Shown piece by piece: positions 520-54,200 of a DNA stretch of 64,000 nt. The notes under the pieces are model-generated. The model did not search any database, had not been told where the DNA came from, and was given only the letters and a program-made list of their open reading frames with translations. How positions within the stretch are numbered: position 1 is the stretch's first letter; each line of letters opens with the position of its first letter. The DNA is from Clavelina lepadiformis. Its lineage: Eukaryota > Chordata > Ascidiacea > Aplousobranchia > Clavelinidae. The DNA is taken from the NCBI RefSeq assembly GCF_947623445.1, contig NC_135242.1:25420001-25484000 (forward strand), written 5' to 3'. The translations under genes were made by a program, and so were the position numbers.

Positions 520-3500
520 ATTGATTGATTGATTGATGATTGAGTGCGTTTGTAGGAGGCGAGACTGCAACTTCACGTTCAAGAACAAATGCGACATCGA
601 GAAGCACAAAGCTTACCACACGAGGGATGACGCCTACACTAGACAGGGCTTCAAGAAATTTTACAAGAACGAACCCTGCAAGTAAGTGGTCGCTTCTTTA
701 TATTTTTGTTGTTTCTTTAGCTATCTGTGACGTCATAATTCATTTCTAGTTTTCCGTCCTGTGCTTGGAATCGGACGGCAAATCATTTCCATTGTTTACG
801 AAAGAATTGCGACTTCTCCTTCACTTCGACTAGTCAGATGGTTTCACACAAACGCAAGCACGACCGGCAGGACCTCATGGGCGTCGACACCAACCGAAGT
901 GAGCATAAAGCGACCAGATTTCAACAAAATTTTCTTTCTTTTGATTTTTTCTTCCAATTCCCAAAAATCAGCTCTTGTCACTACTTCCGCCTCTATTCTT
1001 CCTCGCCCTGTCGTAGCCATGCCAACCGTTGCCAGGTTACCGCATCAGCTAACACCAGCATTCGTGCGCCCCCCCATCGCCCCCTATCTCGGTTGTCAGG
1101 GGCAACCGCTGTCTACTTTCTCTTTCCTCTCTCCTTTCGTTACAGCGAATTTAATCAACCGTAAGCAATAAAGTGTCAAGATTTTTTTTAGATTGTTGCA
1201 AATTTAAACCTAAACGTAAACTTTCAGGCCCGGTCCCGCCAACCTTGTTCGAGTCGAGAGGGAACCAACCAAAATACGACCCTGCATTTTACCAGGAGAC
1301 TGCGAGGAAAGTTTTGGCGAAGATTCCATCCTCAGTCGCTGCCGGTATGTCACGTGACTGACTTTGTTGAAGCCTTCATTTGGAAATTTATTTTATTTTA
1401 TCTTCAGGAGCGTTGCCGAAAAAATTGTCGGATTTTGCGTCAAAACCTGAAAGCTCTAGTCTCCAAGCAGCGCTTCTGCCCGTGTCAACCTCATCCACAG
1501 CGTCGCCTAGCGAGGACGGTAGCTTCCAGCTACAGTAAGTGCGATGGCGCTGTTTCCTGCTAACACTTGTTTATTATCATATTAAATTCGAAATTTCTTT
1601 CTCTTTTGCTTATTTTTATTTATTATTGTTGTGTTTAAAGTTTACGGGATGATAAAAAACAAAAAAACGTTGTAAAATCGATAATTTTTTCCAGGCAAGA
1701 GCGCCCCCCACCTCCTTATATGGAAGTACCAGACAACTCGGTATGACGTACTTTATGGCCATTGGTCGATTGCAAAACTTTTTCTGAGGACCAGGGTTGC
1801 CAACAAAGATTTTTTGTTCCAGACTTTACGTCAGTCGCCAGATTACGAAGAAAACGATGGTTACCATGGCGACGATCAAGATAATTGGACAAAGACAACT
1901 ACGTCACAACGGATGAAAGGTTTGATTGGGTTTGAACATTTCAAATAGATTTAAAGCAAAACCTGAACTGGTTTGACCTTTTTGCAGGTGAGTTCAAGTC
2001 GAGGTCAACGGGAAACAACGAAGGTGGGTTGGAAGATTCTAAAATATAACTTTTAATCGAAATTAACTTTTAGTTCTTTTCTAAAATTGACAAATGTTCA
2101 GAAAGCGAAGCCCTCAATCTTTCGTCGAAAGGAACCGTCCAATCAGACGAAGTTAAATCGGTAGGTTTGTGCTGATGACGTCATGTACAGTAGTTATGGT
2201 TATGGTTATGACGTCAGTAACGCGATTGTTTTGTTGTTGTTGACAGGAAGCGGATGCGGATGAAGAGCCGACGCAGGCGGTGTTGAAGTACTTCAGAGGG
2301 TGAGTAGAGGCTTAAGTTGTGGATGAAAGTCCATCGGTAGCTCCCGTTCCAACTCCCTCCTCCTCTTCTTCCAGGTTGGCATCTGGGGAGTGCGCCCTCC
2401 CCGCGTGCGTATTCGCGTCACGTCATCACTTCCACTGCATCGTACAGGATTGTTGCGCGTTGTTCGTCGACAAACAACTCGTACTCAGCCACACGCTGTG
2501 AGTCTCCACACATGCACACACACGCACACACACACACACACACAATCCATGCTACAAGTAACAATCCATGTTTTTCAGCTTTCACGAAAGATTGGAACGA
2601 TCGGGGATCACCCAGGTCACGTGCACCGATCTTCCCTTTCTCTGCACTTCCACGTCACGTGCTGAGTCATCAAGGGACCCGGATTCCCCCCCACCTGGCT
2701 ACATCGCGCTTTCGATGACCAACCGCACAAGAATCGTCCCAAAACCCATTGATGCGGAACTGCAGGAGGTACCAACTGAAGGAAAGACCCCAGAAACGGT
2801 GTCCCGGCTCCCTCGGATTTCCTCCGAGAACTTGACCCCGGTTGACGCGAGCAGGAGCGCGATGCTCAGCTACCTCAGGATGATCCAGGAGAAGTCGCTC
2901 CTCGCCTCGGGTGAGGCAGGGAAATCCCCGTACATGACCATGCAAATCCCCGCACAGCAGAGTTTGAAGATCCACGGGGATTCGTCCAGGCTTAACGACG
3001 GATACCTCCACGTTCGACCTGGGTAAGTGACGCTGTGACTTCACAATCGTTATGATTGTGTTTCCTTATAACGAAAACCACGACCTTTCCAGGATGGCGT
3101 GCACGCGGCAGGATTGCAAGTACCTGATGCAGAACCACTGGCACTGCACGTTGAACAGGTGCCGGTACGTGTGCAAGTCCCTGGGCAAGGCGCAGACCCA
3201 CAGAGAGGCGCATGACAGCTTGGAAGCATACGCCAAAGCGGCCAAGGAATGTTTCAAGAGCTACACCGTGAAGAAGAACTGTCCCAATCCGGTACGCTGC
3301 GTCCTGTGTTGCGTCATAATATTCCTTCTATGCTTGCGTTTATTGCGTTGTTGGAATGTTGCAGAACTGCGAGTTCCGACTCCGGGGACATTATCACTGC
3401 TTGAAGCCCGGATGTCAGTTCGTCACAATCGGGACATCGAAGCTTCCCTGGCACATGAAGAAACACGAGAAGATCGCGAAGAGAGAAGCGAGCGGATTCA

Positions 3501-5818
3501 AATATTTCACCAAGAAAGAGCAGTGCGGGAAATGCGGTGAGTCCGCTATATGGCGCGCTTGCCCCTACCCCACTTACACGCCCTGTCCATTGCAGAGTGC
3601 AAGTACAACGGCTTGTTCAGCCACTACCACTGCATCCGCGCCGGTTGTGCCTTCGCCTTTCAGTATAAACACCAGATGTCCACCCATGTCCGCAAGCACT
3701 TGAGGAGAATGCTGGGTCGGAGTTACACCGGGACAAGTGAGTTATTTGATGTCTTTGGCCGACACTAGGTGCTGATCGTGATCCTCTACGTAGATCTATC
3801 CGACGAAGCTGACGTCGACCATACCAATGTTGACTCTGGAGATGACTCTTTACCGCTCATTGTGGATGAAGCTGATGAAATTGAACAACGGCCAGGTGTC
3901 GCTGGAGATTCATTCTCGGTGAGTATTGTTCGCCACCAGTTGGCGCAATAATGAGATTCTGATTGAAATTGTCCCTTCTAGTACCAGGCCCGTCCAAGCA
4001 ACCCGACAAACGAACTGAACCAGCTCCAACTCGCCGTATTGGAGCAACTTTCCCGGGGTGGGTGCAGTGAAATTTTACTCTGTTCTTCTCACCTTGCTTT
4101 CTCTAACAAGGCGTTTATCGTAGGCTCGAAAAGCTCTTTCCCGCCAACTAACGAGGGTTTTGACATGATGAATATGGACACTAGTGGGATGAACACAAGT
4201 TCTTTGAACGGAGACGGTGAGTTGGAACCTGCTCAATCAAACGCGAGTTCACCTTCAACCAGTTAACGTCCGACTTTTAATACGTCATCAGATATGTCAA
4301 CTGATGACGAAGTGTTGGATCTTCGAGCGGGGAATGCACAAGACGTGGATTCCAACAGTCTGGCCTCTGGATCCAATGGTGAGTCTCCTCCTCATCGAAG
4401 ATAATCTTCTGTTCTTCGTCAATAAGATAATATTCTGCTTCAGGGTATTGCAACGAACAACAAGTGCTCCCTGAAGCGGATAAATATAACGAGGATGATG
4501 GACATACGATGGCAAAAGAGAGCCTCTTAGCAAGGTATGTTTAGTCGTTATGAAGTTTCGACGACGTTTGTTGTATTCACAACAACTCCATATTTGGTAG
4601 TTTTTCTAGCAAGCAAAACGACGAACTAGGTCAAGGGTCATTCTTCAACAAGTTTAAGCTGAATAATGACGTCATGGAAGGATTTAAAAGATTTGAATCT
4701 TCTGAGAACTGTGGCGACCCCGAGTGTGTGTACACATGCAAGGTATGAATCGGTGTCTATTTCATAGACATCTTCAATTCAGAAAGAGTATCATTTATGA
4801 CGTCATAATGCAGGTGTCCCACTACCATTGCCTACGTGAAGATTGCAATTATCGCTTCACGGGCAGGACCCACATGTTCAAGCACCATCAACACCACGAG
4901 AGGGTGGCCGGGCTGGTGAGAGACGACTTCAAGAGGTTTAAGCCGTCTCAGAGTTGCGAGATGGACGGATGCCAGTACGACGGGACGAGCACACACTTCC
5001 ACTGCCTCAGATGCGACTTCAAGTATGTCCATGCCGTGCCATGAGCCACGTCACGTATTAACGCATCTTCTGCGCAGGTGCGCTGACACCGCCAAGGTCG
5101 GCACCCACAGACGCCTGCACGTGAAGAACGACACCCTCGAACAATGGGGCTTCGAGCGGTTGAGGGGGAAGGACGACTGTAGAAGGGAGAATTGCAAGTA
5201 CAGGTTACTACTCAAGTTTACAATTAAGTCTATTTCCTGGCCATTGTTACGCAATAAGTCTTTTTTATGACGTCACAGAGAACGCAACACGTCCCATTTT
5301 CATTGTCTCCAGCCCGGGTGCTCGTACACTGTGGTCGGTCTGTCCAGCATCGAGCAACACTACAAGAAGCATAAGATGATGACGCAGACGAGGTGAGATG
5401 ACGTCATGTTGCTAGGTGACGTATATCGTACGAACGGTTATTGACGATTTGTTGTTGCAGTCCTCAGGTCAACTTCAATATTCTGGCGAAACATTTCATC
5501 AACCAGAGCGCTGACTCATCCTTCAACTCGTCAAATTATGCTGACTCACCGGTGAACGCTCACAACGTTTCATGCAGCTTTCCATTCAGCGCCTCATCCA
5601 GTACCCCGAGTATGGGTGAACGCAACAGCACAAGGTCAAGTCCAGGGCGGGAGGACCGCGCCGTTGCCTCCCCCACTTTCAATACGTCAGTTCTGACGTC
5701 ACAGCTCAATCCAGGCATGCTGCAGGCTGGTGCGGAAGTGACGTCAGTCGATTTTTCAAAGACCTTGAACCTCTCCCTCGGTGACAGGAGCGGCGCGATT
5801 GCCGGCGTCAGTTTGTAG
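47..5818 (+). CDS. CASZ1: Castor (CASZ1-type) zinc-finger transcription factor, 3' part of gene
   Basis: Nuclear transcription factor of the castor family, which controls neural and cardiovascular cell fates in other animals. The window opens inside the gene. The exons I can join are 47-211, 284-456, 556-681, 750-898, 1228-1344, 1408-1534, 1695-1740, 1823-1919, 1988-2023, 2102-2160, 2247-2299, 2375-2497, 2579-3022, 3093-3291, 3365-3536, 3596-3736, 3794-3918, 3982-4057, 4124-4216, 4292-4378, 4444-4534, 4610-4742, 4814-5022, 5078-5197, 5279-5392 and 5461-5818 (stop). All have GT-AG borders and fitting phases. Ten castor-type paired fingers are seen. Each starts with a short C-x4/5-C knuckle, then a T/S-H-[YFW]-H-C core, then a normal C2H2 half ending in H-x3/4-H. 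Low-complexity acidic and Ser-rich linkers separate finger groups 3/4 and 7/8. Ten fingers resemble the long vertebrate CASZ1 isoform rather than the shorter fly protein. A poly(A) signal AATAAA overlaps position 5820. The 5' exons lie outside the window. Confidence 0.93.
473..539. repeat. (TGAT)n microsatellite in a CASZ1 intron
   Basis: About 16 tandem copies of TTGA/TGAT, with one TTGG interruption, fill most of the 99-bp intron between two castor finger exons. Confidence 0.95.
2507..2544. repeat. (CA)n microsatellite in a CASZ1 intron
   Basis: Imperfect CA dinucleotide run with two interruptions, just upstream of the acceptor of the exon that begins at 2579. Confidence 0.95.
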
Positions 5819-17300: not shown

Positions 17301-18725
17301 CAAAACGCGATTTTCCGCGTCGTGTTTATCGCAGCATCATTGACTGAATCATTCCGCGAAACGTGAACGTGCTAACGATGTTTAGAACAAGATTGTTATC
17401 ATCAATAAAAGCGTATCAGGGAAGAGTTCATTGTGATGTTATAAAAGCGATTATGATGTATTCGGAATCAATCTATAAAGAGAATTATGGAGCATGAGAT
17501 ATTTTTAAACGTCGGCACAGATGCAATTGTTTCGTAATAACTGGATAATAAAATTAAAGCAAGTATATTGTGAAATGTCTAAACGACTTCGTCTGCGAAT
17601 GAAGCGCGATTATGAAATTATAGAGTGGAGCGGAAATTGAGAAAGCGGCGATGGAACAGAGCGGTATCTGCTTCTTTCGCAACCACAAAGCTACGGATGA
17701 AAATAATGAACTTTTCTGACAGTCTTTATATTTATGATTCTATGATGTCATAAACGAAGTTCGAAATGTGTACTAAATCGGATGCGTGGAAAGACCGCTC
17801 CTTCGATCTATAGATTTGTATGAAATTGGTCAACAAACAAGTTGGATGTGATCCCACCCTTAAAACTTCCATAACGCCACATGTATCATAGATAACGAAA
17901 CATTATCACGTAACAGGCGGTCATCACACAGGGCAGATTATGACAAAACAAACGACCTTGTTTGTGTAGTTCCATCTCAAAACAAATCAAACTAGAATTT
18001 TATATCTCATTCATAAAACTGAGGAATTCGTTTATTTTCGTCACAATGTGTTTGCTGCGTAACAACAAATGAATTTTATGTCGCGGTCTCCTGTTTTCTT
18101 GTTCGATTCTACTTTGGGCGAGGAAGCTGCGAGCAATGAAGCGGAACGCGCGAAACAGCGACAAATGAAAAGATGGACAACTTGTAACTTGTTTATGACG
18201 AAACAATGTGAGGCTGGCTCGTTTATTTCTATCCCAGCATATTGTTAAGCGCGAAACTTTATGAGGTAACAATATAAGTATGACGTCAGGAATCTTATAA
18301 GACCGGTCCAATTAGTGTAAAGTGAGCTTTATCTGATGTCTGTGTTGTTTAACAGCCATTATGATGACACAAAGCAGTTTGATTGTTTGATATGGAACAA
18401 AATGGGCGATTAAAATTTAAAATAAAACGCGGTGGCCGCTGTAGTTGGGGGGGATTACATCAAAATAGGCCAAAATATTTAGAATTTGACCTTCCCGGCG
18501 CGAATTTGCGATGAATAAATCATCCGACAGCCTTGTTTTAACTGGCATGCACGTCACAATACTGCCAGGCGAATTCTAGAAGCAACTCTTTGGTTATTTG
18601 CTCGAAATAGAAGCAGCGCTTACATCACTGCTGCATCCATCGATGTGCGTCGCGAACGTGAGAAAAAAGATCCCAGATCGAAAACCGCGTCGCTTCGTCT
18701 TTTTTCCTCGTCGACACGCGACTGG
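8395..18725. other. Gene-free 10-kb intergenic region
   Basis: I found no exon with matching splice sites and no domain in either strand. The sequence is AT-rich. It carries many copies of TGACGTCA and of degenerate relatives such as TTATGACGTAATAA, ATTATGATGTCATAA and TGACATCACAA. Open frames of 60-121 codons are scattered on both strands, as expected by chance. It lies upstream of the peptide-hormone-like gene and could hold its control elements, but nothing in the sequence proves this. Confidence 0.6.
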
Positions 18726-18732
18726 TATAAAA
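18726..18732 (+). promoter_or_regulatory. TATA box of the PTH/TIP39-like gene
   Basis: TATAAAA in GC-richer surroundings, about 240 bp upstream of a strong donor (AAC|gtgagt, 18963/18964) that would end a non-coding first exon. The first exon would start near 18755 by normal TATA spacing. Confidence 0.55.
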
Positions 18733-19215
18733 GGAGCGAAATATCGTGGAGAAGCATCAGAAGTTTGAGATGAAATTCTTTGGAGAATCCGAGATTGTTA
18801 AGATTTGAGAGAGATATTTTGCAACGAATAAGTTTTTAGTTGTTTTCATTATTTTTGCAGCAAAATTGAAATAAATTTGTTGATTGTTGCTGATTGAAAA
18901 GTTGATCAATTTGTACCAAGCTACAACAGCAATTTTCAACTCAACATTTTCCATCTTTAAAACGTGAGTATTTTTCATGATTTTGCCGATTTCGTAATTT
19001 AGTTCAAAAATATCGAACCACGGATGTGTTATTTTTAACAAAATCTCGTGTTGCCTCGGGCTCAGTTCGTTTTAACGCTTCGTAATGAGCTAAACATACC
19101 GTGACTGGTCCTCATGCTGCCCATCAGCTTAAAATGCTTCGTAAAATTCTGCGCGCACTAGAAATAATTTTGTCGCCTGTTAAATAAATTAACTTTATTT
19201 TTCTAGATTGAAAGA

Positions 19216-20327
19216 ATGCATTCCACACAGCAATTCTTATTAAAATCTTTGGTGATTGTTTTCGTCATAATGGTCGTTGGTTGTTACGCAAGACCGACCG
19301 GCTCAATGGAGGAAGAAGAAAGTCCATTGCATTCGCGTCGCATCTCCCAACATACAAGGTAATTTTTCTATCGGAGAATTTTAGTCTCTTTGCCGGAATA
19401 GAACGCTTCTAATGTAGCAGAATTAAAAATCGAAAGCCGATGTTAAAATTCGACCGGTTGTCTCTGTTTGGATGATCTTGAGCAGGAAGGTAAATGACAT
19501 AAACAATAACAACAAATGCTCTTCCAGAACACTGGCCCGCAAGCGACACGCCGAGATCCGAGTTCTGCAGGAGATGGCGAAGAGGATGGCGGCGTACAGG
19601 AGGCTCGCCACACTCAACAACCTGCTCGAGGGAATCGATTCAAGCAAAGTTGTTTCACTTGAGGTAGGCATTGTGATGTAACAGATAAACTGCTTGATAC
19701 GCTTATGTGGTCATAAACAAGCTTCGATTGCGAACTCGCATCGATCCATTAAATACCGCGATGTCGCGGTATTTGCGCTTTTTAATCTGCACGCTTCACA
19801 ATTATTGCATCACAATAGCAAACCACTTTACCACAACGCAAGCTTTTGTGAGGTCACAAGATGCAAGTTTTGTGTCGAAATTAACCAGTCAGCGACTAAC
19901 AGAATGCAAAGTGCTCGTAGAACAGACATAAACGCTCGACCCGGGCCGCGCTTCTCACAAGACACTTCACAACATCATAGCACTTACTATCACGTCACAA
20001 TCGTCTTTGATAACTTCACGTCAAGAAACAGACTTTTGAGTGTTAGCGGGCGCCTTGAACAAATCTTTATAAAATTCAGCGAAAATTTCGTAAATTTCTT
20101 GATCAAAAGCGAGATTCCAATCGAAGTTTTTTGACCACTTTTAGTAAATTTTATGTGTTTTCAACAATAATTTCAACAATAACAATCAGATGGCAACCTT
20201 GTCACTTTTGTGACGTCATAAAGCGCGGCCCTCTCAAGTGAGCGTTTATTTTCAGGACAAAGAACAAATCGCCCAATTTCGTCATAGGCTTTTGAGGAAA
20301 TTGTATCGAAGGCGCAGAAGAGCGTAA
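19216..20327 (+). CDS. Candidate parathyroid hormone/TIP39-family peptide precursor
   Basis: Three coding exons, 19216-19358, 19528-19663 and 20256-20327, join in frame to a 116-residue precursor (human preproPTH is 115). A non-coding exon ends at 18963 and its intron stops 9 nt before the ATG. Residues 1-26 are a clear signal peptide (FLLKSLVIVFVIMVVGCYA). A short acidic pro-region follows, then ARKR, a convertase site. The next residues, HAEIRVLQEMAKRMAAY..., align without gaps to PTH from residue 2. Matches are Glu4, Ile5, Lys13, Arg20, Leu24 and Leu28, with hydrophobic 8, 11, 15 and 31. Against TIP39 the Ala, Glu, Ala, Ala-Ala, Arg, Leu-Asn positions also match. The C terminus is very basic (RKLYRRRRRA). 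Trp23 of PTH is absent. I infer a secreted ligand for a class B receptor. Identification by residue pattern only; a CRF-like reading was weighed and judged weaker. Poly(A) signal at 20740-20745. Confidence 0.62.
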
Positions 20328-20745: not shown

Positions 20746-22415
20746 ACGCATGAGCGAGAAGGAACTCACTGCACTGCATGAGCCGAGCATGCGCTTGAGC
20801 TTTGGCAAAATTTCAAATGAAATAATTTAAAATTTTGTTCGGCAGACAGCCCATGGAGGCAGAGGAGAGCCGTCTGGAGGCGCGGAGGTTAGAAAATTTT
20901 GAACTTGAATTTTAATGATTCTTGTCACGCGCGCAATTTGTTGCATGGGCGGCACACACATGACCACCCGGCTTCAAATCTTCGCATATCGACGTCTTAA
21001 ATGTTTGTGACATCAAACATTTAAATGCATGAACCGACATTAGACGACGCAAAACTTATCTGCCAACACGTCACGTTAACAACTTAATTATCGCGTTTGC
21101 TTCATGCAAGAACCCTGGGTTTAGACCCCAAACATTTGTCGCTGAATCGCAAGATAGGGTGCGTTGTTATGGCAACGGTGCATTTACGTAATAATTGGTT
21201 TAGATTGTAAACTTGTGTGTTATGAAACAAAGCATCCCACATCAATGTCACTATCATGTCACGCAATAAGTGGCCGTGACGTCAAAATGTCGTGATTATC
21301 GCAAACAATCGATCTAACCCGCTTGTATCTGTCGATGCAAAAGGAGGCGCCGTTGCAGAAGTGTGGCCAATCACGAGGTCACTGCCACGGACTGGGGTCG
21401 GGATTGGTTGGGTTTCATCCAATAAAGTTTGAGGAAACTTTTTGGCATCGTGAGGTCATAATTCAACGAAAAATCGTTGAAATAAAGTCAGTTTCAAGAT
21501 TAAAGAAACGCAAAATTAATTCTCGGTAAAGGGAACATCACCGTTTGTATTTGAAAATATTTTTTAACCAGGGGACTGTTTCTTTGTGACGTGAAAGAAG
21601 CCGCTGCATAAAGCAGAAATCTTTATTAAAGATTTGTTCGTCTCAGTTTAAAACCAGAGATCGGACAAATTGGTTTAAAAATCTCAAAAATAATCCACAA
21701 TCGCGTCTTACATGAAGCGGCCAAGCTCACCGCTTTAACCTTCCGTCAATGTTGTGGCTTCTTCGGTTAAACAAAAATAAACAAACTTCACCAATCTCAC
21801 CCGTCAGCTCCACGCTTCGCAAAAGAAAGCCTTTGTTTTAGTTGTTATGACAGCATAAAGCGTCGTGCATGAGGTCATCGCATAAAAAGCTGGGGTAAAT
21901 TTTAATTATTTGATGCGTGAAATTTGGGAAGAGGAAGTGTCCAACGAGCTAAACACTGTACCCATTATTGTGTCATAAAGTGGCATTGTTCGCTTCATAT
22001 TTGAACTCAACACAAACCTCAAGCGTTTCAACAACCGCATCTCTGTGACGTCACTTACTGGCTGCAATTAGTTTGGTAAATAAACTGAAAGATCGATGGT
22101 TGTTGGGTGATGGCAGGGTCGGGGCGAGATGTCAAACCGAACTCAAAACTGACAACTTGCCGGCAAAACTATTTCGACCAGTACTATCACGTTACGTCAC
22201 CAGATAAGTATCAACACGCAGACTTTGTGACGTCATAGTAAGCCAGAGAGGTTTTCGGCTGAAGAGTTTTTATCAAAGTCCTTGAAGGTTCAATGTCAAG
22301 TGTGATTATGCCCCGACCTTCAAACATAACAACACGTTCCTGTGGCGTAATAATACCTTAGTGTAGTGATTGTGAGCAAATAATCGGAAAGATTGATCCA
22401 AAAGTTTACTTCCAG
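20746..22415. other. Intergenic, nothing recognisable
   Basis: AT-rich sequence with several TGACGTCA copies (for example near 21278, 22045 and 22228). No exon, RNA gene or repeat that I can name. Confidence 0.6.
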
Positions 22416-23132
22416 ATTTATCCGACGGCTCCGTCCCATCAAGAGATCAACTCCGAGATCATTGATCAACTGAATGGGAGCCAACTTACTGGAGGAATCA
22501 GAATGAAAGTCATCCAGAACGAGCAACCTAGCACGCCACCTGCCGGAAAAGATTATTTAAGGTAGCCAACCCTTTATGACATCATTATTAGCTCAGGCGG
22601 GTTGTCAGACAAGTAAAATAAGTGGCTGAAAAGAAAGATCAGTTATAATTGGGCAGATCTCAGAACTCTGATCTATGTCCATCCAGGATAAATCCGCCAA
22701 TTTTAAATTTTTATCTGAGGCCGGCTAGGGCAGCTTCAAAAAGCGGTAATTTGCAACGAATGCTGCAAAATTAGGCCATTGAGGCATTGAGGTTGATAGG
22801 CGTCAATCTTAGAACGACATTGAACAAGAATTGTTTCTGTGATTTTGGTTATAATAGAACCAGCAGAAAAACTTCCAACTTCATATTTAACAATAAAAGC
22901 TCCGTGCTGGCGATTATTACGGGCACTGTGAAGCAATGTTGTCGTTTATTGCGGCCACTGTGAAACAGTAACGACCGTGTTTCCTTTCAGGTTTATCCAA
23001 CAAACCCAGAACGCGGTGGCTCTGGCGAAGACATGCAGGGACATGCAGGAAATGATCGCCAAGAACAATCTCCGTCTTCGAATTCGATGTCATCACTCGC
23101 CTTCCTCAACACGTCACACAAGCAGGCAGTAA
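22416..23132 (+). CDS. Doubtful two-exon gene 3' end, unknown product
   Basis: A pyrimidine-rich acceptor (ttacttccag) opens a frame at 22416 that stays open to a possible donor (TTTAAG|gtagcc) at 22561. A strong acceptor (tttcctttcag) opens the next exon at 22991, which continues in phase to a TAA at 23130-23132. The predicted peptide begins IYPTAPSHQEINSEIIDQ, has a helical stretch (TQNAVALAKTCRDMQEMIAK) and ends Arg/His/Ser-rich. The frame could start further upstream at 22362. No start codon, domain or family was recognised, and the gtagcc donor is weak. It lies 1.7 kb downstream of the hormone-like gene on the same strand, but shows no clear similarity to it. Confidence 0.28.
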
Positions 23133-26270: not shown

Positions 26271-29200
26271 TCATCGAAGTTGACAGCGACACCAGGCGAT
26301 GGCAGTCCTGAGCACATTGTATCGTTAAATGTTAAAATAAACTCGATCATTTCATTTTCATTTATGAGCTACTCACTCACCAGAATGACTTGGCGAAGTT
26401 TCATTGGCTGATTGGTATTCTATGGAGTCAATGTTATGATTGCCCAATGGAGTTGATGACGTCACAGAAAAACATGCATCTTCGGAATCATAATCGGTAC
26501 TATGAGGTCATAATGACAGTTAACAGGAGCAAAATACTAAGCCAGAGGGCATGAAATAAATAGCAGGGTCAAAATTGCGAAATTCAACTTTGAACTCGAA
26601 TTAAACTGGGAACCGTGAAATGTCTTCAAATGAAACAATGCCCATGGTTATCTATTACTAGACTCATCGGAGGTGACGTCATAATACTAATTATTAGGTA
26701 ACACAGCAGTGAATTAATATATACCTGTTAACTTCCATCAAGTCTGCACCAAAACTGCCGTGAGGTTTCGGAGAAATATCTAAGAAATAAACGCAACATC
26801 AACATCAAATTGCGCCACGACCACAGACATCATATTTAAAACTCACCTGCACAAACCAACACTTGGTGGGGCGGAGATTCACTCACCACATGGTCATTTT
26901 CCATGACTACTCGGCCATGAAGGTTGTCATGGGAACTTAACGCATCAAAGGAGGGCGTGGCCACATCGGAAGGGGCGGGGCTGGTAAACAGGTAAAAGAT
27001 TAGGTTAAATGAGTTCAAGTTTGAATGATGAACAGATTCCACGTCACATGAGGCACCTTTCACCTCCCGCCGATGTGATCGTGCTCGCGGCACTTGAAGA
27101 GTAGTTTCTCAGCGGATTGTCTGATCCCGTCCCGTACCTCGTGCTTCCTTGTGAACTCGACTCAGAATTTCGCAACAATGGTGCGCTTTCATCATCACTC
27201 TCTGTGATGTAACAATTGAACAAGAATCAACTATTTGGAATAGAATCGCTGAACAATGGGAGTAGTTCGAACCGTAATCGTCTTCGGAGTTTGACGTTTC
27301 ATCGTCGCTAAGAACTCTCCGTTTGCAGAGCGGGCAAACCCTCTTGGTGGCGGTGAGCCACGGGTCGACACATTTGCAGTGATAGGCTGTGACGTAATAA
27401 AGTTGTTACCACTCGTCCACGCTTCAACCTCATACGCTACAAGTTACCCACCGTGTTGGCATGGCAACACTCGGAGTTTGTCGCCCTCCTCGTAATCATC
27501 CAGGCATATCGCACAGACATCATATTCATCGCCTATGTCACAAATATTTCCATGAGGTCATTACGAATCGTTGAGAACACATAAAATATTCCAAATCAGC
27601 GCTTTGCAGTAACCCCAAGTAACCTTTTTTGTATTGTTTGACTGGAAGTTGTTTTAGCCGTTGCCGTGACAACCGGTTTCTTCTCTGTCGATGCCTACCT
27701 CGAACGAAACGAACCAACTGGAACAAAAAATATTCAAATCTTAACTGGTCATGTATGAGCAGAGTGCATAGCAATGTTATCGATAACATGAAGAATTGCT
27801 CAGCTGTGCCTATCAAGGAACTCCTGCCCGAATGCAAATTGCTTCCAAATCTAGTTTATTTTGTTTGATTGTCAAACTCTGTTATCTCCAAATGACTAAA
27901 TTGTCAATCAAGTTATTTCAAGCAACGATCACCACCAGAAGAACCAAATGTATATTGCCACCTGGTGGCTAAATGGTCATTTCGTGGACAAGTTTCCATA
28001 GATATCTCATAAAGCTTAAACACCACATTAAAGATGGGCTTCCAACTCACCATGAATAAAATGAGTGCAACAAAGCAAGTTCCTATGACAGTGATGAATG
28101 GAACGATGTAATAGTCGATGGAGAACGGGGTGTTGTGGTACAATGTCACGCTTGGGTTGTTTCTGCTCAACACAATTTAATTTTAAGATAGCCGCAGTCA
28201 CATCTGACATAAGATGAATAAGTCAGTGTTCCTGGGGACCAAAACAATCTCTCAAAATTAATGCTTCTGCAACCACAGAAGGAAATTAGCTGTGGGTCTA
28301 TAAAAGATCTCTGAAACTTTTTAGTGAAACCAAGTCAAAGTGAAACCTTAAAACACACCAGATTGGTGCAAGCCATGTATGGCGCCATGCACCAGGAACC
28401 CAGATGGTGTCATATAACCAGTGATTAAGAGAAATGATGAATGAGCAAAGAACACAATTCCACGCAAAAGATGGATTAAACTCAATAAAAGAAACACAGA
28501 CAATGGTGTGAACCAGGATAAAGCAACAGAACTTACTTGAAGTAGTAGAGATAGTAGCTTGCCAGCGCTTCACCTGCTGTTATGCCGACGAATACTGAAG
28601 GAATAGCAATGTCTAATTCTGGGCCAACAAAAACAATATTAACTTTGTAAGAAAAAAATTAAGCTCCACCAAAACACAAGAACCAGTTCATGGTGTGGTT
28701 ATACTATGGTTAGTTTGACCTGGGCCGTGTGGTCAAATTAGCAACTTTCAACTCCGGTTTTAGTTTGCTTTTGGTGAATTATTTTTAAAGAATTATAAAC
28801 AGTTCCACAAACATGGCAAAAATATTTATCTGGCAAAAAATTTAAGATTGTAATATAATTTTATAATTTATGTTCAGAATTTGGCAAAACAAATTTTCAA
28901 AAGCTTGTGAAGGGATGCAAGCTACACATCGATAAGACACAAAAGCTTTATCCATCATATTTGCAACAACTCAACAATGCAAATAATCACATGACAAACG
29001 ATGTCACAATGTGCTTACAATGAGGTAATAAAGAGTAGACAATAGGCTGCCAGAGGCAACTGAGTTAGTTGCTAGCAACACATAATTGACATATAATAGC
29101 CTTAAACTATCTGCTGGCGGTCAAACATGAATATGTGGAAAAGAAACGATGCACCAACCATAGGCTGTGTTCATCCTAACCAGTTCATCAGACTCATCGT

Positions 29201-38065: not shown

Positions 38066-39947
38066 ATGGCAGAGTAAGTGAAGTACAATTAAAACTTTAC
38101 CGTTAGCTGGTTGTTTTGCTGCTTCTTATTCAACTATAGTGGTATTTATAAGTTAACTTTGTGCAAATTGTGTATTTGCAGAGCAGACATCGCGTTGATT
38201 GGTTTGGCAGTTATGGTAAGTGAAGTTGTCTTTCATACCTTCCTGTAATCCTGTATTATGACAAGTTAGCAGTTTTCGATGAAAATTGTACGTGCCAAGA
38301 TATAAATTTTGCTATGACGATGTGAACTGACAATCATATCATGGGCCGCTTTTCTTTGACATTGAAAGTTAGCTTATGTGCGAATTTATTTGCACAATAT
38401 TCTGATATGCCACATACTTTACCATTACAGATATAAAATTGGGGTGGTGCAGTTTTTAGCGTTAAATAGATATATTGATGTATTTGTCCAACGAACTGAA
38501 AGCAAACTGACTCCATGAAAATTTTTACACGCAAGCAGAACTTCAGGGATTGAAGCAACTTGGCCACGAACTGATCATAATTTTATTTGTTTCAGGGCCA
38601 AAACTTGATCCTCAACATGAACGACCACGGCTTTGTGGTGGGTACCGACACATCACAGGTTGTTTCAAAGCTTTGCAAGTTTTTAATTTTTCTTTCCCTT
38701 CAAGGTCTGTGCTTACAACCGAACTGTGGAGAAAGTGGAAAGATTTCTGGAGAACGAGGCAAAAGGGACAAAAATCATCGGAGGGAAGTCAATCAAAGAT
38801 ATGGTGAGCAAATTGAAGAAGCCGCGGCGCGTGATGATGCTTGTGAAGGCCGGTGCCGCAGTCGACAGCTTCATCGAACAACTCGTGAGTTTAAACACAA
38901 AGAACGCAGCGTTTCTGAGTATACAGACAGCTTCACTTTTTACTGTTTATTGGCACCTTGTTTAATGTCACATGACTTGAATTGTTGTGTCATAAAGGTG
39001 CCCCACCTTGAAAAAGGTGACATCATAATTGACGGTGGAAACTCCGAGTACACAGATTCTATAAGAAGAGCAAAACAACTGGAGGAGAAGGGGCTGCAAT
39101 TTATTGGGTGTGGGGTCTCAGGGGGTGAAGACGGGGCAAGATACGGCCCCTCACTTATGCCCGGGGGTTCCCCTAAGGCATGGTACGTTCATCGTCTTCA
39201 ATTAAGTCAAAGTGTTTTAAATTATCCTTATGGCATCACAATCCCTAAATTAATCCTATCACTCTGTTTAATCAAAACCACTCATTATGACATAACAAAT
39301 TGTCCTGAATTGACCTTTAGGCTTCATGCATATAAATTTGTTTTGGGTAGAAATGGTGTTGACAAAATATCGGTGCAGTTTCGTGCCACGTTTTCATGAT
39401 ATTTTCACTCAACTTTCAACAATTTCATACGGCTCCAAGTAGTTTAATAAGATCTTCAGCTTTCCGCATATTCCATTTTATTTTCATTTTTCCGCACGAG
39501 ATTGATAAAGATGTCGGTCTGACATCCTCACAAAACTGCAGACTTCACCCCAGGACTTAATAGTGTCAATATTTAGTTTGGTCTTTATCATATAAATGTG
39601 CTTGAACATTTTCTTCGCAACCCAAAGTTACAGGAACAGACAACAGTTGCTGTCATAGTTATTTATTTATCTTAAAATTGTTTGGTTAGATCTGCAAAAA
39701 ATTAGATATTTCTTGTGCAAGAGCTAAACTTCAAATCATTTCTTCGTAAAACGTGACCAGATACTTGATGAATCGTTATTTTAACACAGGCCCGCTGTGA
39801 AGGAAATCTTTCAAGGAATTGCTGCAAAGTCTGGAGGTGACCCGTGCTGTGATTGGGTGAGTCTGTCGGAAATCATTTTGCTCGATCTATTTGCTATTCT
39901 ATTCCTGCCACTAGGTGGGGGAAGGTGGCGCAGGGCACTATGTGAAG

Positions 39948-39982
<35 letters not shown>

Positions 39983-41251
39983 GCTCATCTGCGAGATCTA
40001 CAGCATCATGAAGAACGTTGTCGGAATGAGTAACGATGAAATATCTGACGTGAGTTGCTGAAATTCTAACAAACATTTCTTTCATTTCCTGCTGAAATTA
40101 ATCGATATCTTGTGCCAGGTGTTTGCTCAATGGAATAAAGAAGAATTGGATTCGTTTTTGATAGAGATTACGAGGGATATCCTGAAATTCCGCGACACCG
40201 ATGGAAAACATTTACTCGATAAAATTCTTGACTCGGCCGGACAGAAGGGGACAGGGAAGTGGACCGCGATATCTGCGCTTGACAAAGGGATGCCGGTTAC
40301 TTTGATTGGTAACTTCACACTGATTCACAATTTTTCTTCATTTCTCTGACTTCATTGCGGTAATTAACCTTTGACCTCAGGCGAGGCAGTTTTCGCTCGA
40401 TGTCTCTCTGCGTTAAAAGACGAACGAGTGGAGGCTTCAAAGCAACTGAGTGGTCCCAAAGTCAAGTTCGAAGGAGATAAAAAGCAGTTCATGGACGACC
40501 TGAAACAGGCAACTTCCTGAAATTTATGAGTTTACCATCACTCTGTTGTCCTCGTGCTAACATCAGCTGACTCACAGGCGCTGTACGCTTCCAAGATCAT
40601 TTCCTATGCTCAAGGCTTCATGCTGATGCGAGAAGCCGGGAAGATTTATGATTGGAAGTTGAACTACGGAGGGATCGCCCTCATGTGGCGTGGAGGATGC
40701 ATCATCAGGAGGTAAGATGTCTATGTGACAATAATTAGCTCATATATGAAAGTGTTCGATGGTTTCAGTGCGTTCCTGGGAGATATAAAGAAAGCGTTTG
40801 ATAAGAATCCGAACCTGAGTAACCTTCTCTTGGATGATTTCTTTAAAGACGCCATCCTCAAAGCACAGGTTTGTTGCTGGCAATAACATTGCTTTACGCA
40901 TCGCAAGTATTTAAAAATCTTAACGGATCGTTTAACACAGGCTGGGTGGCGCAGAGTGGTTGTTACGGCGATCAACAACGGTGTTCCGAGTCCGTGCCTA
41001 AGCACAGCGCTCTCTTTCTACGATGGATACAGGTCAGAGACGGTGCCGGCCAACTTGATTCAGGTAACCTCGATCAGATGATAACGGTATTTGTGGAAGA
41101 TTTTGAACTGATGTTTGTAAATACTTTCCAGGCACAGAGAGATTACTTCGGGGCCCATACGTACCAGTTGTTATCGAAACGCGGTGAACACGTCCACACC
41201 AACTGGACTGGGCACGGAGGAAACGTTTCTTCATCGTCTTATAATGCGTAA
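38066..41251 (+). CDS. PGD: 6-phosphogluconate dehydrogenase, decarboxylating
   Basis: Cytosolic enzyme of the oxidative pentose phosphate pathway: 6-phosphogluconate + NADP+ to ribulose 5-phosphate + CO2 + NADPH. Thirteen exons join to 481 residues (human 483): 38066-38073, 38182-38215, 38596-38637, 38705-38884, 38998-39182, 39790-39856, 39915-40049, 40119-40308, 40381-40508, 40578-40711, 40769-40868, 40941-41063 and 41132-41251. Seen are the NADP-binding [18 protein letters not shown], the substrate loop [30 protein letters not shown], the catalytic [17 protein letters not shown] region (Lys and His/Asn present), GQKGTGKWT, and the C-terminal HTNWTGHGG...SSSSYNA. The first exon codes for fewer than three residues. 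The intron after 40508 starts with GC, not GT. Poly(A) signal at 41459-41464. Confidence 0.97.
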
Positions 41252-48285: not shown

Positions 48286-51200
48286 TTAGTACACCCACGA
48301 AACCGGAACCCATTGTTCGACCGACGACGCTTCTTCGATGGCGTTCTGCAAAGACATCTTTGTGAGATAAATCATAGAACCCAGTAAATGATTTATATGA
48401 CTCAGCATGCCATCAAACCTCGAGCTTGCTAATCGTCTGGTCTATGTCATTGTTGACTATTGTGACGTCAAAATAGTGCTGGTAGGCATCTTTAAGGAGG
48501 TCTGACTCTCGCTGCAATCTTTCCAAGCTCTCGTCCTGAAACGATGACATCATTAGTGACGTCATCCAAGGTGGGGTCAAAAATGGGGACTTACCGGTAA
48601 TTGAGTGAACCAGTTGTCGGTCTCCGCGCAGCAGATAAACAAGCGATAGGTAAGCCTTAAATAAAATAAACAAACTAGAATTAAGCACCCACCTCTTCAA
48701 GGGGGGCGGCGTGGACGTCTGGGGCCGCGATGAAGACGACGTAGGGGGCGAACTCAGCACTACGCAGAATCTTCAAAGCCTGAAAGTGACGTCATTAAAG
48801 TGATTATGCTCGAGCAATTATGACGCGAGTGATGACAAAGGCGGCACCTGTGGTTCGACGTCGAGGATCGCCATCAGCCCGTCCTGGTGGATCTTCTTTA
48901 TTGTGTCCAGCTTCGTGCCGTAACAAGCGTTCTCGTGTGTGCCGTATTCGAGATACTGACTGTTCTTTATTTCGTGCATCATTGTCTCGTATGTTGTGAA
49001 GTAATAATTAATCCCCGCCTGCTCGTCGGGTCGCTGCGGCCGCGTCGTATCTGGAAAACCAATTCAATGACGTCATAAAGAACTTTAAAGGCAAATAGGT
49101 AGATGCCATACTTACGCGGCACGGGGTATGCAAACTTTCCTGGGTACCGGCTTATGAGCGTGTTCTTGATGTGTCGCCGCCCAACACCGTGTGCACCTGC
49201 CATTGGACAAACGAGGTAAGACGTAACAATGGCAAGCAGTCATGTGATCACTCACCTAGCAGAACCAGAGTTTTTCTTTTGAACTTGGGTTGTCTCACCA
49301 CCTCCTCATACGTCACAAGGTCAAGTTGGTCAAACACTGGAGAATGAAAACAAGAGTTGTTGTGATGATTGAGCAACATGACCGTCAACAACCGAGATAA
49401 GACGAACCAGCGTTGTGCTTGGCGAGGTATTTGTCCTTCTGTGGCTTCTTCTTCTTCCCGAACCACGAGTTCCCACCACAGTTCTGCTGCTCTTTCGTCC
49501 TCTCCATGGCCAGGCAAGCGACGCGCCTGACACAGAACATCAATTAAACCGTCGCCATAGCAACCGCAGGGGGGGTGAACTCACCACTCTTGAAGCTCGG
49601 GGGAGGGAACGAGGCCGGCGGATGAATTGGCGTCGCCGACAACCATCGCCTGCCACCAGTTGTGGTCGTCCTTGCTGATGACCTGGAGGATGTCGCCGGT
49701 GTCGAACCTGACCCCCGCCTCACGACACGGGATGAGGTCATCGGAGCGCGGGTCGTACGAGAACTGAGCCCGCACATAAATCTAATAACGACATAGCGCT
49801 GTTATGGTGTGAACTTCGAAATGGTGATTACAACCAATCTGAGACATTAATGGAATATGACTGTTGAAATAATCTGCAGCAAGTCGTCAATGATCTTACC
49901 TTTATAGTTCGAATACTTAGAAAGCAAAAAAATAGCAGTGACAAAAATGTTGATCAAACCAAGACCATGACACACCAAAGCAAGATCAACAACTTACCTC
50001 ACAGCTTGGTGGCGGCGCTCGGTAACTCGGGACTATCTTGAAAGTGATGTTGCCTCGTAGTTCACGCTGACATGCAATGACATCACAATGAGATTATGAT
50101 GTAATAATTTAACACACTACACTAATAACTTACGAGCATTTTCTGGAGATTATCGATGGACTGGTTGCTGACATTGACGCTGTTTATTTCACGAATTTCA
50201 TCCCCGACATGAAGTGTGCCTTCGTTAAAATATTAACTTCATCAAAACAAGAAACCAAACCACACAAAAAATACTCAAGTTTGACACTTTGTTGAAATGG
50301 TAAAAGGAAAATGAAATACCTTGTCTATGGATCATGCCGCCGTGCATAATTCTCGCCACAACGCAGTGTCCTTCGTCGTTCATCTTCAGCGTTATTCCCT
50401 GCAAAATGATCAAAATGAGTGATAATAATTCATAGAGCTCATAATCACATCCAACTCACAAGTGGTTCATTCGTGTTTTTCATGAACTGGATCAGTCGCA
50501 CCCTGGTGATCTCTGTAACTTCCCCTCCATTGGCCGATCCGTTCTCCAAGTTGTCGACACCATTATGAAAGTGACTGTCAGGTGCTGGTGTGACCTGGTA
50601 GGCCTCGTCGCTGTACACCTCGTGCGCCACTACATCATGGGCTTGCAACAAACCCTGTGTGATTAAATCATATAATCATGAAGCCGGTAGATATTCAAAC
50701 CACTCACACAGACAACTAAATCTCTGACCTGTCGAAAGGCTTCAACAGAGCAGAGTTTCATGACTTTAAAATACCTTAAAATGCGGCTGAGTGAGCAAGG
50801 CCATCAACTCGAGCGCAGAGGAACTTTGGAACTCATTCAACATCGAAAGCACCTCGCGTGTCCAATTCACTGCTTCGCTAGGTGGGGTGATGTTCTTGTT
50901 CTGTGATGTGTTGATTTTGTCATAAAGCTGAAATAAAGCAACAAAAGTTATAACATCTTCCTATACAGCAAGTGAGAGTTCTTCAAACCTCACCAGAAGA
51001 ACCTGATCAACGTTTCTGACCAGACACCAGGTTGCCCGAACCAGTGCGATATCAAATAAGTAATTTAAGTATTTCTCTTCTTGCTCTCGAATAAACTTGA
51101 AAACTTTCTTAGCTGTGCTACAAGTTCTCAATTCAAACCTGAAAGAGAAATCTCAACTCTTGGATAAAATTTTTCATAAATCTGCAATTATTTGAACATC

Positions 51201-54200
51201 GGCCTCCCCCCTGCCATGAACAAGTAAAAACGAACATTTGATGGTTTGTTCACAGAATGACGGACTGGAGGCTTCAACGTATTCTCTTTATTCAAGATTT
51301 TAACCAAAACAATTCATGAATTTTCAAAAATGTCTTCAAACCGGAAACAGCACAAAATAAAATATCACGATAAGATCAATTTTCACTGAAAACAATGTTT
51401 TGGGTAATTTTGTCACCATCAGCTGCTGACAATTCAATCCAGCAGAGCCTTCATTGATTCAGGTAAGCATCCCACAACCTCAAATTACTGAACAAATTTA
51501 AATCACAATCTATCAACAAACGATTTGTGATGACCTCACAATGAACATTGATGATGTCACTTCACGCTGAGAGCTCGTTTAAGGGTCCGGGGGCTCGGAG
51601 GAGGAGGAAAGTTCTCGGGACTCGGTTCATCGAGTCCGCTCTCTCCTCTTGTTGGACTCAACCTCACCGACGTTCCAAACGTGTTCCGGGACCCTCGATT
51701 GGTCGGGAGTTCCCCCGTTGAGAGATCCTTCGGAGATGCGCTTGTGGGCGACAACTCCGGACTCGATTTGTTCTCCAGCCCAGGAGCGGAGTTTTGTTGG
51801 TTTATTTTCCACGGAGTTGATTTTAAAAGCGGGACGCGCTCCTCTGCGACCACAACCTGTCTGGCTCCCACTAGTGGCTTTTCAGGAGTAGCAGCGCTCG
51901 AAGAGTCATTGAGATGGAGTTCTTCGGAGGCTTGCCTGGACGTGCCTGCTTGTTTATACTTCGCCTTCCTGATCAAAATTGGAGATTGTTCGTACCTGTA
52001 CAAGCACAAGACATCACATAATCGCTTCAATCAAAGTTTTATCTAAGAACGTGTAGAGACCTGTGCGGTGTTGCACGACGAAGCTCAGACAACGCTTTGG
52101 CGCTGCTCCAACGCTTCTCGTAGGAATCTTCAAAACCAAAGCTTTCCACCGATCCATGCTTTGAACTTGTTTTACCGACTTTTATGGAAGATGGTCGCCG
52201 TGACATCACTTCCCCTGCAGATATTAGAATGGTTTCAATCACATGAAAGATGGTTTGAAACGTCAAACTGACTGTGAAGAATATCACCCACCTCATATGA
52301 TCTCATCAAGTGATGACGTCGTCAAACTTTCTTGGTTTCTCAAAAAATATCCAATCTATGTATCTACAGCTGCTCATGCAGTGCTGCAGGTCTGATCAAA
52401 CAAAGCACGATGAGGTCAGATTATTCTGATGAGAACCCGTAACTGGTCAAAATTAAGTTCCACTAACTCCTCACTAACAACGTAGCTGCCATAAACCTTA
52501 TCAAAGATGTCTATGGTGCAGACACAACCACTGAGCTAATCTGTCTAACGTCGAACTGTGTGACTCTGTCGCAAGAATTTGGGGAAAGCAAACATAGCAA
52601 GTTGGCTCGATACTTTGTCAACTGTCAATGATTGAAAACCACAAGCAGCGATCATTTCAATGTCATAACATCTCCTACACTGGTTAATCATTGCCAGTAG
52701 CTTGTGTTAGAGGTCACTCACGGAAGGTTGTTCCACGCATGTACATCTCCCACCCTTACATGTTTGTATATGCTGTATCTTAGATAAATTCTGTCTACGG
52801 GGACATATTTAGGAAAACTCTTCATACAATATTATTTGCAAGCTCCATAAACTTATTGAAGACCACAACAAGGCAATATTTTGCCACCAATCTATACCAC
52901 AACATCATTTATAAACCATCCAAAGTTGTGGTATGGTGCACTATGACAACATAGTAAGATAAAGAAATCATAGAAACATTAAAATTGAGCCAAAGTCAAA
53001 CCTCAAGCATGCTGTGGAGAGATTTGTCATCGAGTAAACTTTGCAAGAATTCGAGGTCGTTCTCGGCGCCGTCTGAGAGAGCGTGGACTTCTTCTAAACT
53101 ATCCAGGACGTGGGCAACTGCACCTGCACACGGCATCGACATCTTATTCATGAAACTAACAATCAATGTGATTCAATGTGTGATACCTGATGATGTTGGG
53201 TCCTGCTCTTCGAACAATAGCATGTCATCACCCTCTAGTGGCGGATCGTTATAAAATGAAGCAAATTTAGCACTCGAGACGGCTGCAAGCACAGCACCCT
53301 GCACATCAAAATAATCAAGCCTAAAATTTCCATGATACTTTATGATTCAAATGATTTAACGACAATTCAACCCATTGTGATATTTCCGTTAAGATAAAGT
53401 TCGAGCTTGGGAGCACCTTCAACTTCCTTCTGGCGTTGAATTTCTTCAACTGCTCCACAGACTCATTTAGGTGGATCTTGGGAGCGTATCTCTCCCTCTC
53501 TTTGATCCAGGGATGGTTGAGGCATTCGAACACGGTGATCCTCTCATTCGGATCAATGGTCAACATCCTCTGGATGAGATCCTTGCACGACTCGCTGATG
53601 TGCTCCCACTGTCGCGGGTTCATCTAAACCATAGAAATGTCATCACCAAATATTCAAACAGTTTGGATGAGGCGGAATTTGGCTCACTTTGTACTTTCCC
53701 TGCGTGATTGACTCGTACAAACGCTCTCTCGTTCCGTAGAAGGGTAAACTGCCGCTGACAAGAATAAACATCATCACCCCACAGCCCCATATGTCCACTG
53801 GCATGCCGTACGGCTCCCCTTGGACAACTTCCGGGGCCATAAAGTGCGGAGTGCCAATATTCCCTGGGAAACAAGAGCTTGTTATAGAGACGCAAGCTTG
53901 AAATTGTCACAAAGCATTGTTGTCAGTGAACTCACAATCATAATCACAATTAACCAGAATTTCTCATCCGTGTGCTACTGCAAATATTTCATAACTTAAA
54001 AGGACCTATCAAGTTGACAGCGATTAACACAATTGGTCATGATCCCAACTGCTAAGATATCTATAGCCCACAGCTTTTAAGTAGTTTGTTTTTTTTTGTT
54101 TAGACCGACGCATCTAAATTGCGTTTCCCCATTGTGACATAAAGATCATAGATCGGTGCAACAGCAGAAACTTAGGCGGGCATGGAGCCAATACCCCATC

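Follow-up and report, generated by a model that had tools for sequence, protein, structure and literature searches.

Does a tunicate make a parathyroid hormone (PTH)-like ligand of its own? This is the question raised by a locus of the aplousobranch ascidian Clavelina lepadiformis, in whose 209 Mb assembly we analysed a stretch of 64,000 nucleotides (C3:25420001-25484000; hereafter the window), and we think the answer is likely to be yes. Judged by comparison of sequences, the product is probably the prohormone of a secreted PTH/PTHrP/TIP39-type peptide, its gene being a tunicate co-orthologue of those of vertebrates; a preliminary description of the locus had proposed a PTH/TIP39-family hormone. 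Its parts, in window positions, are as follows.

18726..18732, forward strand: TATA-box-like motif TATAAAA, the sole match to the pattern in 17901-19216, of presumed function
18757..18963, forward strand: predicted non-coding first exon, drawn by eye, start approximate, donor GTGAGT at 18964
19207..19358, forward strand: first coding exon, with a phase 2 donor (GTAATT); it holds 9 bases of 5'UTR (by eye), the signal peptide and most of the pro-region, and its coding part, 19216-19358, is identical to NCBI
19216..19290, forward strand: predicted signal peptide, residues 1-25, cut between VGCYA and RPTG by the -3,-1 rule and hydropathy
19528..19663, forward strand: second coding exon, identical to NCBI, with the end of the pro-region, the KR site and the entire PTH-like core
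19541..19546, forward strand: KR dibasic site, Lys53-Arg54 in the translation, a predicted cleavage site
19547..19657, forward strand: PTH/PTHrP-like core HAEIRVLQEMAKRMAAYRRLATLNNLLEGIDSSKVVS, its first residue equivalent to PTH position 2, from alignments and profiles
20256..20327, forward strand: third exon of the preliminary description, with an Arg-rich C-terminus and stop; open, in phase, AG acceptor
20846..20887, forward strand: optional exon of isoform X1, 14 residues, which reproduces P0002 exactly
22416..22561, forward strand: coding exon 3 as modelled by NCBI (C-terminal tail), which reproduces P0001 exactly
22991..23132, forward strand: final coding exon as modelled by NCBI, which holds the stop codon and reproduces P0001 exactly

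Is there a real gene here? A protein database search with the precursor returned three proteins only, and no orthologue from another tunicate. Two are 100% matches, isoforms X2 (P0001) and X1 (P0002) of LOC143450464, an 'uncharacterized protein', and the other is P0003, a 176-residue ENA protein from a 2.8 kb contig. Joining 19216-19358, 19528-19663 and 20256-20327 at GT/AG sites does yield the open 116-residue precursor originally described, and its first two exons are exact in NCBI, but its third exon is in neither NCBI model. There, exon 2 is joined instead to 22416-22561 and then to 22991-23132, with 20846-20887 added in X1, and for this reason the 116-residue precursor corresponds to no annotated product. 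With the NCBI exons both isoforms are rebuilt exactly from the window, the phase fits at all three acceptors downstream of exon 2, and the hormone-like part is identical in all three models. Exon 20256-20327 is thus a candidate alternative terminal exon, unsupported by the NCBI models; in P0003 its 23 residues are preceded by unspliced sequence, so that this protein places the stretch elsewhere too and does not demonstrate the splicing. The idea that the gene is mis-modelled or decayed, with no peptide made, might draw on that exon's absence from the NCBI models, but it strikes us as highly improbable given exons 1 and 2 that both NCBI isoforms share, an open frame, canonical splice sites, and a TATA motif and first exon that can be drawn.

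Is the product built like a prohormone? The precursor runs from a predicted signal peptide through a short acidic pro-region to KR at residues 53-54, directly before a core that starts at His55, so the dibasic site stands where it had been placed. The proposed signal peptide is likewise borne out by a hydrophobic N-terminus (hydropathy maximum 3.38) with a possible cut between VGCYA and RPTG, a position that comes from the simple -3,-1 rule rather than SignalP and is one of four that the rule permits. A phase 2 intron lies in codon 48, four codons upstream of KR. Passages of a review (PMC4354418) describe a first intron that precedes the KR site in elephant shark pth2 and a classic organisation of PTH and TIP39 genes in three exons; a pro-region intron ahead of KR is consistent with the PTH family. 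Past the core, X2 and X1 lack a dibasic site and none of the three models has a Gly-dibasic amidation site, while the tails hold a single Gly-Lys (137 in P0001, 151 in P0002) and, in P0002, a Gly-Arg at 98. Vertebrate PTH, PTHrP and TIP39 are not known to carry a C-terminal amidation signal after the core. Within the core there are two dibasic sites, at residues 66-67 and 72-73, which are possible cut points and where cleavage would abolish the hormone; internal dibasic sites also occur in human PTH, PTHrP and TIP39, however, and the PTH reading therefore survives them. By hydrophobic moment the amphipathicity of the core is not above that of shuffles, a measure that is uninformative for real PTH too, and a structure model of P0001 from one sequence is of low confidence (pLDDT 46.7).

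How far, then, does the core resemble known ligands? The 35 residues after KR align without gaps to PTH 2-36, and the identities to human PTH (E4, I5, K13, R20, L24 and L28, or 6/35) and the hydrophobic positions 8, 11, 15 and 31 are as first claimed; with TIP39, 8/36 are identical in register. Against PTHrP in register the count is 8/35 for human, 10/35 for avian, 9/35 for crocodile and 11/35 for marsupial sequences, and on these alignments the likeness is greater to PTHrP than to PTH or TIP39. Arg20 and Leu24, the columns invariant in 9/9 reference rows, are both in register in Clavelina. Of the N-terminal activation motif [SA]-V-S-E of PTH and PTHrP (not of TIP39), Glu4 alone is held in common; PTH residue 1 is missing, residues 2-3 differ and the aromatic at 23 is replaced by Thr, and potency at a vertebrate receptor may therefore be low.

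Could such a likeness arise by chance? When the 37-residue core was compared with 24 class B1 ligands, the highest ungapped score was 28, for PTHrP and PTH alike and in one register (urocortin 2 next, with 20), a value reached by 0.002 to 0.007 of shuffles; gapped local scores were close, at 34 for PTH, 33 for PTHrP, and 31 for both urocortin 2 and TIP39. The gapless score of 53 for avian PTHrP was reached by 0/5000 full and 0/5000 hydrophobicity-preserving shuffles, the corresponding fractions being 0.0022 and 0.0028 for human PTHrP, 0.0022 and 0.011 for human PTH, and 0.013 and 0.020 for TIP39, while chicken PTH was not above shuffles (0.20 to 0.51). It should be said that avian PTHrP was met after database retrieval, and human PTHrP and PTH were taken beforehand. 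In a free local scan of the 1325 ORFs of the window, with matches allowed at any position, the exon came first for avian PTHrP (53, next 32), sixth for human PTHrP, third for human PTH and fifth for TIP39.

A stricter comparison is with segments that also follow a dibasic site. We scanned 273,886 bases, overlapping loci included, with 1566 open segments and three possible starts, omitting two loci with copies of the candidate (L001 and L050) and keeping the copy in the window. Avian PTHrP gave the candidate a score of 50, human PTHrP one of 30 and human PTH one of 27, the next independent segment reaching 13 each time; with chicken PTH the core was again first (14, next independent segment 6), and with TIP39 it was second, at 19 vs 21. 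Expressed as z-values, computed with 3 residues of slack against 1164 unique background segments from which the candidate had been removed, the match is 7.9 for avian PTHrP, 5.0 for human PTHrP, 4.8 for human PTH and 3.7 for TIP39, for which two background segments score equal or higher. Of 48 distinct vertebrate PTH/PTHrP cores, drawn from 120 of 347 proteins, among the matches listed, 41 give the Clavelina core a score above every background segment. When the 100 highest background scores are extrapolated exponentially, a conservative procedure, about 4.7 such segments are nonetheless expected by chance in 209 Mb. At the scale of the genome the sequence match therefore does not decide the matter by itself, and for that reason the case for the PTH family rests on the match, the prohormone anatomy and the receptor together. 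It is on this extrapolation, on precursors that match no Pfam family and on the fact that the closest reference, avian PTHrP, was not chosen beforehand that one might build the view of an unrelated secreted helical protein whose 34-residue match to PTHrP is coincidence. We regard this as unlikely, since the match starts exactly past the KR of a signal-peptide protein with an intron just upstream, a PTH receptor orthologue is present in the same genome, and human PTHrP and PTH, both taken beforehand, are also top of the 24 ligands.

What do family profiles say? The Pfam Parathyroid profile, suggested earlier as a check, went against the candidate: PF01279 matches neither the precursor nor the core. 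As controls, human PTH and avian PTHrP match PF01279, and human TIP39 matches PF14980 (TIP39 family) only, which the Clavelina precursor does not match. TIP39 itself thus lies outside PF01279, and the missing match therefore excludes that Pfam family and not the wider ligand family. A PF01279 search of the whole genome gave no match, with the tool's controls matching nowhere, and avian PTHrP against the whole genome gave none either; the latter missed the known candidate locus too, which marks both searches as insensitive. A Pfam scan of the precursors returned no family (best at chance level, a ZFYVE26 TPR with E 0.083), and a PDB sequence search no PTH (best at chance level, a viral phosphoprotein with E 1.4). 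A 9-row PTH-family profile was aligned by hhalign to P0001 straight after KR (E 0.00095, in one comparison; probability 22%), and the HMMER version gave 11.1 bits for the core, 8.5 for the 116-residue precursor and 7.0 for P0001, with 5 of the 1885 scored hydrophobicity-preserving shuffles (2000 were made) exceeding 11.1 bits.

Might the peptide belong to another class B1 group, most plausibly a glucagon/secretin-like one, with its PTH likeness a general likeness among class B1 helices? Its mature N-terminus would start His-Ala-Glu, as in GLP-1; exendin-4 has the top z outside the PTH family (3.7), followed here by secretin at 3.5 and PHM at 3.3; no background segment reaches the candidate for exendin-4 or PHM; and there are other class-B1-like receptor loci in the genome (C1 12.246 Mb and C7 16.388 Mb). 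We consider it very unlikely all the same, because the group's profile gives hhalign E 0.34 over 5 columns and -0.2 bits in HMMER, Phe6 and Thr7, which are typical of the group, are absent, and z is higher for PTHrP and PTH. The start pattern of glucagon, secretin and PACAP is [HY]-x-[DE]-G-x-F-T, and membership of that group was rejected, as there is no profile likeness and, by eye, only H-A-E in common. CRF/urocortin/DH44 membership was rejected as well (hhalign E 0.083 over 12 columns, HMMER 1.8 bits, CRF z 0.9); urocortin 2 was third in the free comparison of the 24 ligands.

Returning to the PTH-family reading, is there a receptor for such a peptide? Matches to PF00002 lie at no fewer than 119 places (at least 119) in the genome, presumably a mixture of secretin and adhesion types, and the search for a receptor of the PTHR clade found one PTH-receptor locus, on the reverse strand at C5:20,744,982-20,750,858 (20.745-20.751 Mb), with a PTHR-type TM2 motif and PTHR-like exons. 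The 428-residue query assembled from it, with exons put together by eye and approximate joins, scores 453 bits with PTH1R, 443 with PTH2R and 316 with the secretin receptor. The best three of 2301 matches are 'parathyroid hormone 2 receptor-like' proteins, two of them from Ciona (70% and 69%) and the third from Styela (64%); among the matches listed, four proteins at 57 to 61% come next, ahead of the PTH receptors of vertebrates (47 to 56%). In the Clavelina genome itself, the query, which was built from that same C5 locus, finds eight pieces of 76-98% identity (E 1.7e-10 or better) and weaker ones, all at one locus; the next receptor loci are those at C1 12.246 Mb and C7 16.388 Mb, with 43 to 50% identity. 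In alignment with human PTH1R, the C5 receptor retains Tyr195, Arg233, Gln451, Leu41 and Asp137, has Asp for Glu444, and is changed at Asp30, Gln37, Ala44 and Tyr136. We take the compared residues, such as Tyr195, Arg233 and Gln451, to be hormone contacts. A word search of a structure paper (PMC9586930) found no passage on Arg233, Tyr195 or Gln451. Ciona PTHRs were described earlier, according to passages of PMC2396169 and PMC3483286. With the C5 orthologue, PTHrP and PTH at the top of the 24 ligands, and a PTH profile that scores above those of CRF and glucagon/secretin, the PTH-family reading of the preliminary description remains the best supported.

Two further observations concern receptors. 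Two similar exons of the PTH receptor locus, each coding for the last part of the hormone-binding domain, lie about 1.3 kb from one another (L033:18-176 and L032:8648-8794, both on the reverse strand); they are perhaps mutually exclusive, a choice that would alter ligand binding. Elsewhere, 7tm_2 receptor fragments form a large local cluster at C4:0.49-3.24 Mb, and the scores of many of them are the same or nearly so, which suggests a tandem expansion.

Is this the first such peptide from a tunicate? Here the earlier claim has to be withdrawn, since two reviews, in the passages concerned (PMC4354418, PMC5640766), cite Mirabeau and Joly 2013 for PTH-like peptides or genes in tunicates and amphioxus, and the Clavelina peptide is therefore not the first. 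In parts of an older paper (PMC3483286), PTH receptors are predicted in Ciona, no TIP39 gene was found in Ciona or amphioxus, and PTH/PTHrP ligands are described as apparently absent from invertebrate genomes; a passage of PMC4354418 holds that it has yet to be clarified what the PTH-like peptides of invertebrates truly are. Our literature searches found no paper joining 'Clavelina' with 'parathyroid' and no sequence of the earlier tunicate peptides, and a word search of the main text of a 2022 review of ascidian peptides (PMC8936170) found neither PTH nor parathyroid. The Clavelina peptide probably adds a member, as yet without a name, to a known family that has already been claimed for tunicates.

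Which relative does it resemble most? With PTHrP (PTHLH) of birds, crocodiles and marsupials it aligns ungapped over 34 residues, sharing Arg19-Arg20, Leu24, Asn26-Leu27 and Glu29-Gly30, and both precursors have KR ahead of the core and a tail past it. The C-terminal variants in the Clavelina annotation also have a counterpart in PTHrP, for which splice variants are described in a passage of PMC3009671. Unlike PTHrP, however, the Clavelina core starts at PTH position 2, with residues 2-3 differing and 23 not aromatic, its tail has no likeness to that of PTHrP by eye, and PF01279 is unmatched. With PTH it has in common the register, the intron ahead of KR and a non-coding first exon (predicted by eye in Clavelina), but it is less similar to PTH than to avian PTHrP. 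It is like TIP39 (PTH2) in that PF01279 matches neither, and unlike it in that TIP39 starts two residues before PTH. The earlier tunicate and amphioxus peptides would, by the reviews' description (passages of PMC4354418 and PMC5640766), be of the same family, those of tunicates from the same subphylum. Insect iPTH and lophotrochozoan QSGamide are neuropeptides too, as parts of PMC7224569 and PMC8557429 have it; there iPTH is amidated before a dibasic site and less than 12% identical to human PTH, PTHrP and TIP39, and it activates insect PTHR-like class B1 receptors (PMC7224569). The Clavelina core differs from iPTH in having no Gly-dibasic site after it.

Does the neighbourhood help? TEAD and BTBD10 are neighbours of vertebrate PTH genes. 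Macrosynteny lends no support, with TEAD on C1 and the best BTB_3 match (BTBD10-like) on C2; a weaker BTB_3 match lies on C3 at 9.0 Mb, 16 Mb from the candidate gene, and BCAT family matches in the genome are below the cut-off. Within the window there are also genes for 6-phosphogluconate dehydrogenase (PGD; 38581-41248, forward strand) and CASK (48413-53906, reverse strand; a kinase piece best matched to CASK and a guanylate-kinase piece), a RING-H2 finger piece of an E3 ligase-like gene (27109-27402, reverse strand; below the Pfam cut-off), and zinc-finger-like ORFs at 2562-5818 (forward strand), by eye castor-like (CASZ1), three of which gave no Pfam match when tested. CASZ1 and PGD lie close together on human 1p36, and castor-like ORFs near PGD could therefore be old microsynteny.

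How might the Clavelina hormone work? Once the signal peptide had been removed, a prohormone convertase would cut after Lys53-Arg54 and release a peptide that begins at His55, has a tail that depends on splicing and is expected to fold as a helix. Arg20, Leu24, Leu28 and Ile31 (PTH numbering) of its C-terminal half would bind the extracellular domain of the class B1 PTH receptor at C5, and the N-terminal Glu4, Val7 and Leu8 would enter the transmembrane pocket and so activate the receptor. A bolder proposal, which we hold with considerable doubt, is that Clavelina has kept, as an ascidian, the one PTH ligand that existed before duplication, that the closeness of this ligand to PTHrP of birds and marsupials rather than to PTH or TIP39 means that the ancestral chordate ligand was PTHrP-like, and that its alternative C-terminal tails, spliced at the 3' end and one of them Arg-rich, parallel those of vertebrate PTHrP. 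Greatest similarity to PTHrP, seen in the sequence of one species, is suggestive in its bearing on the ancestral state. What a tunicate precursor with a PTHrP-like core and a receptor in the same genome would allow is a direct ligand-receptor test in the sister group of vertebrates, one that bears on the role of PTH signalling before bone and parathyroid glands.
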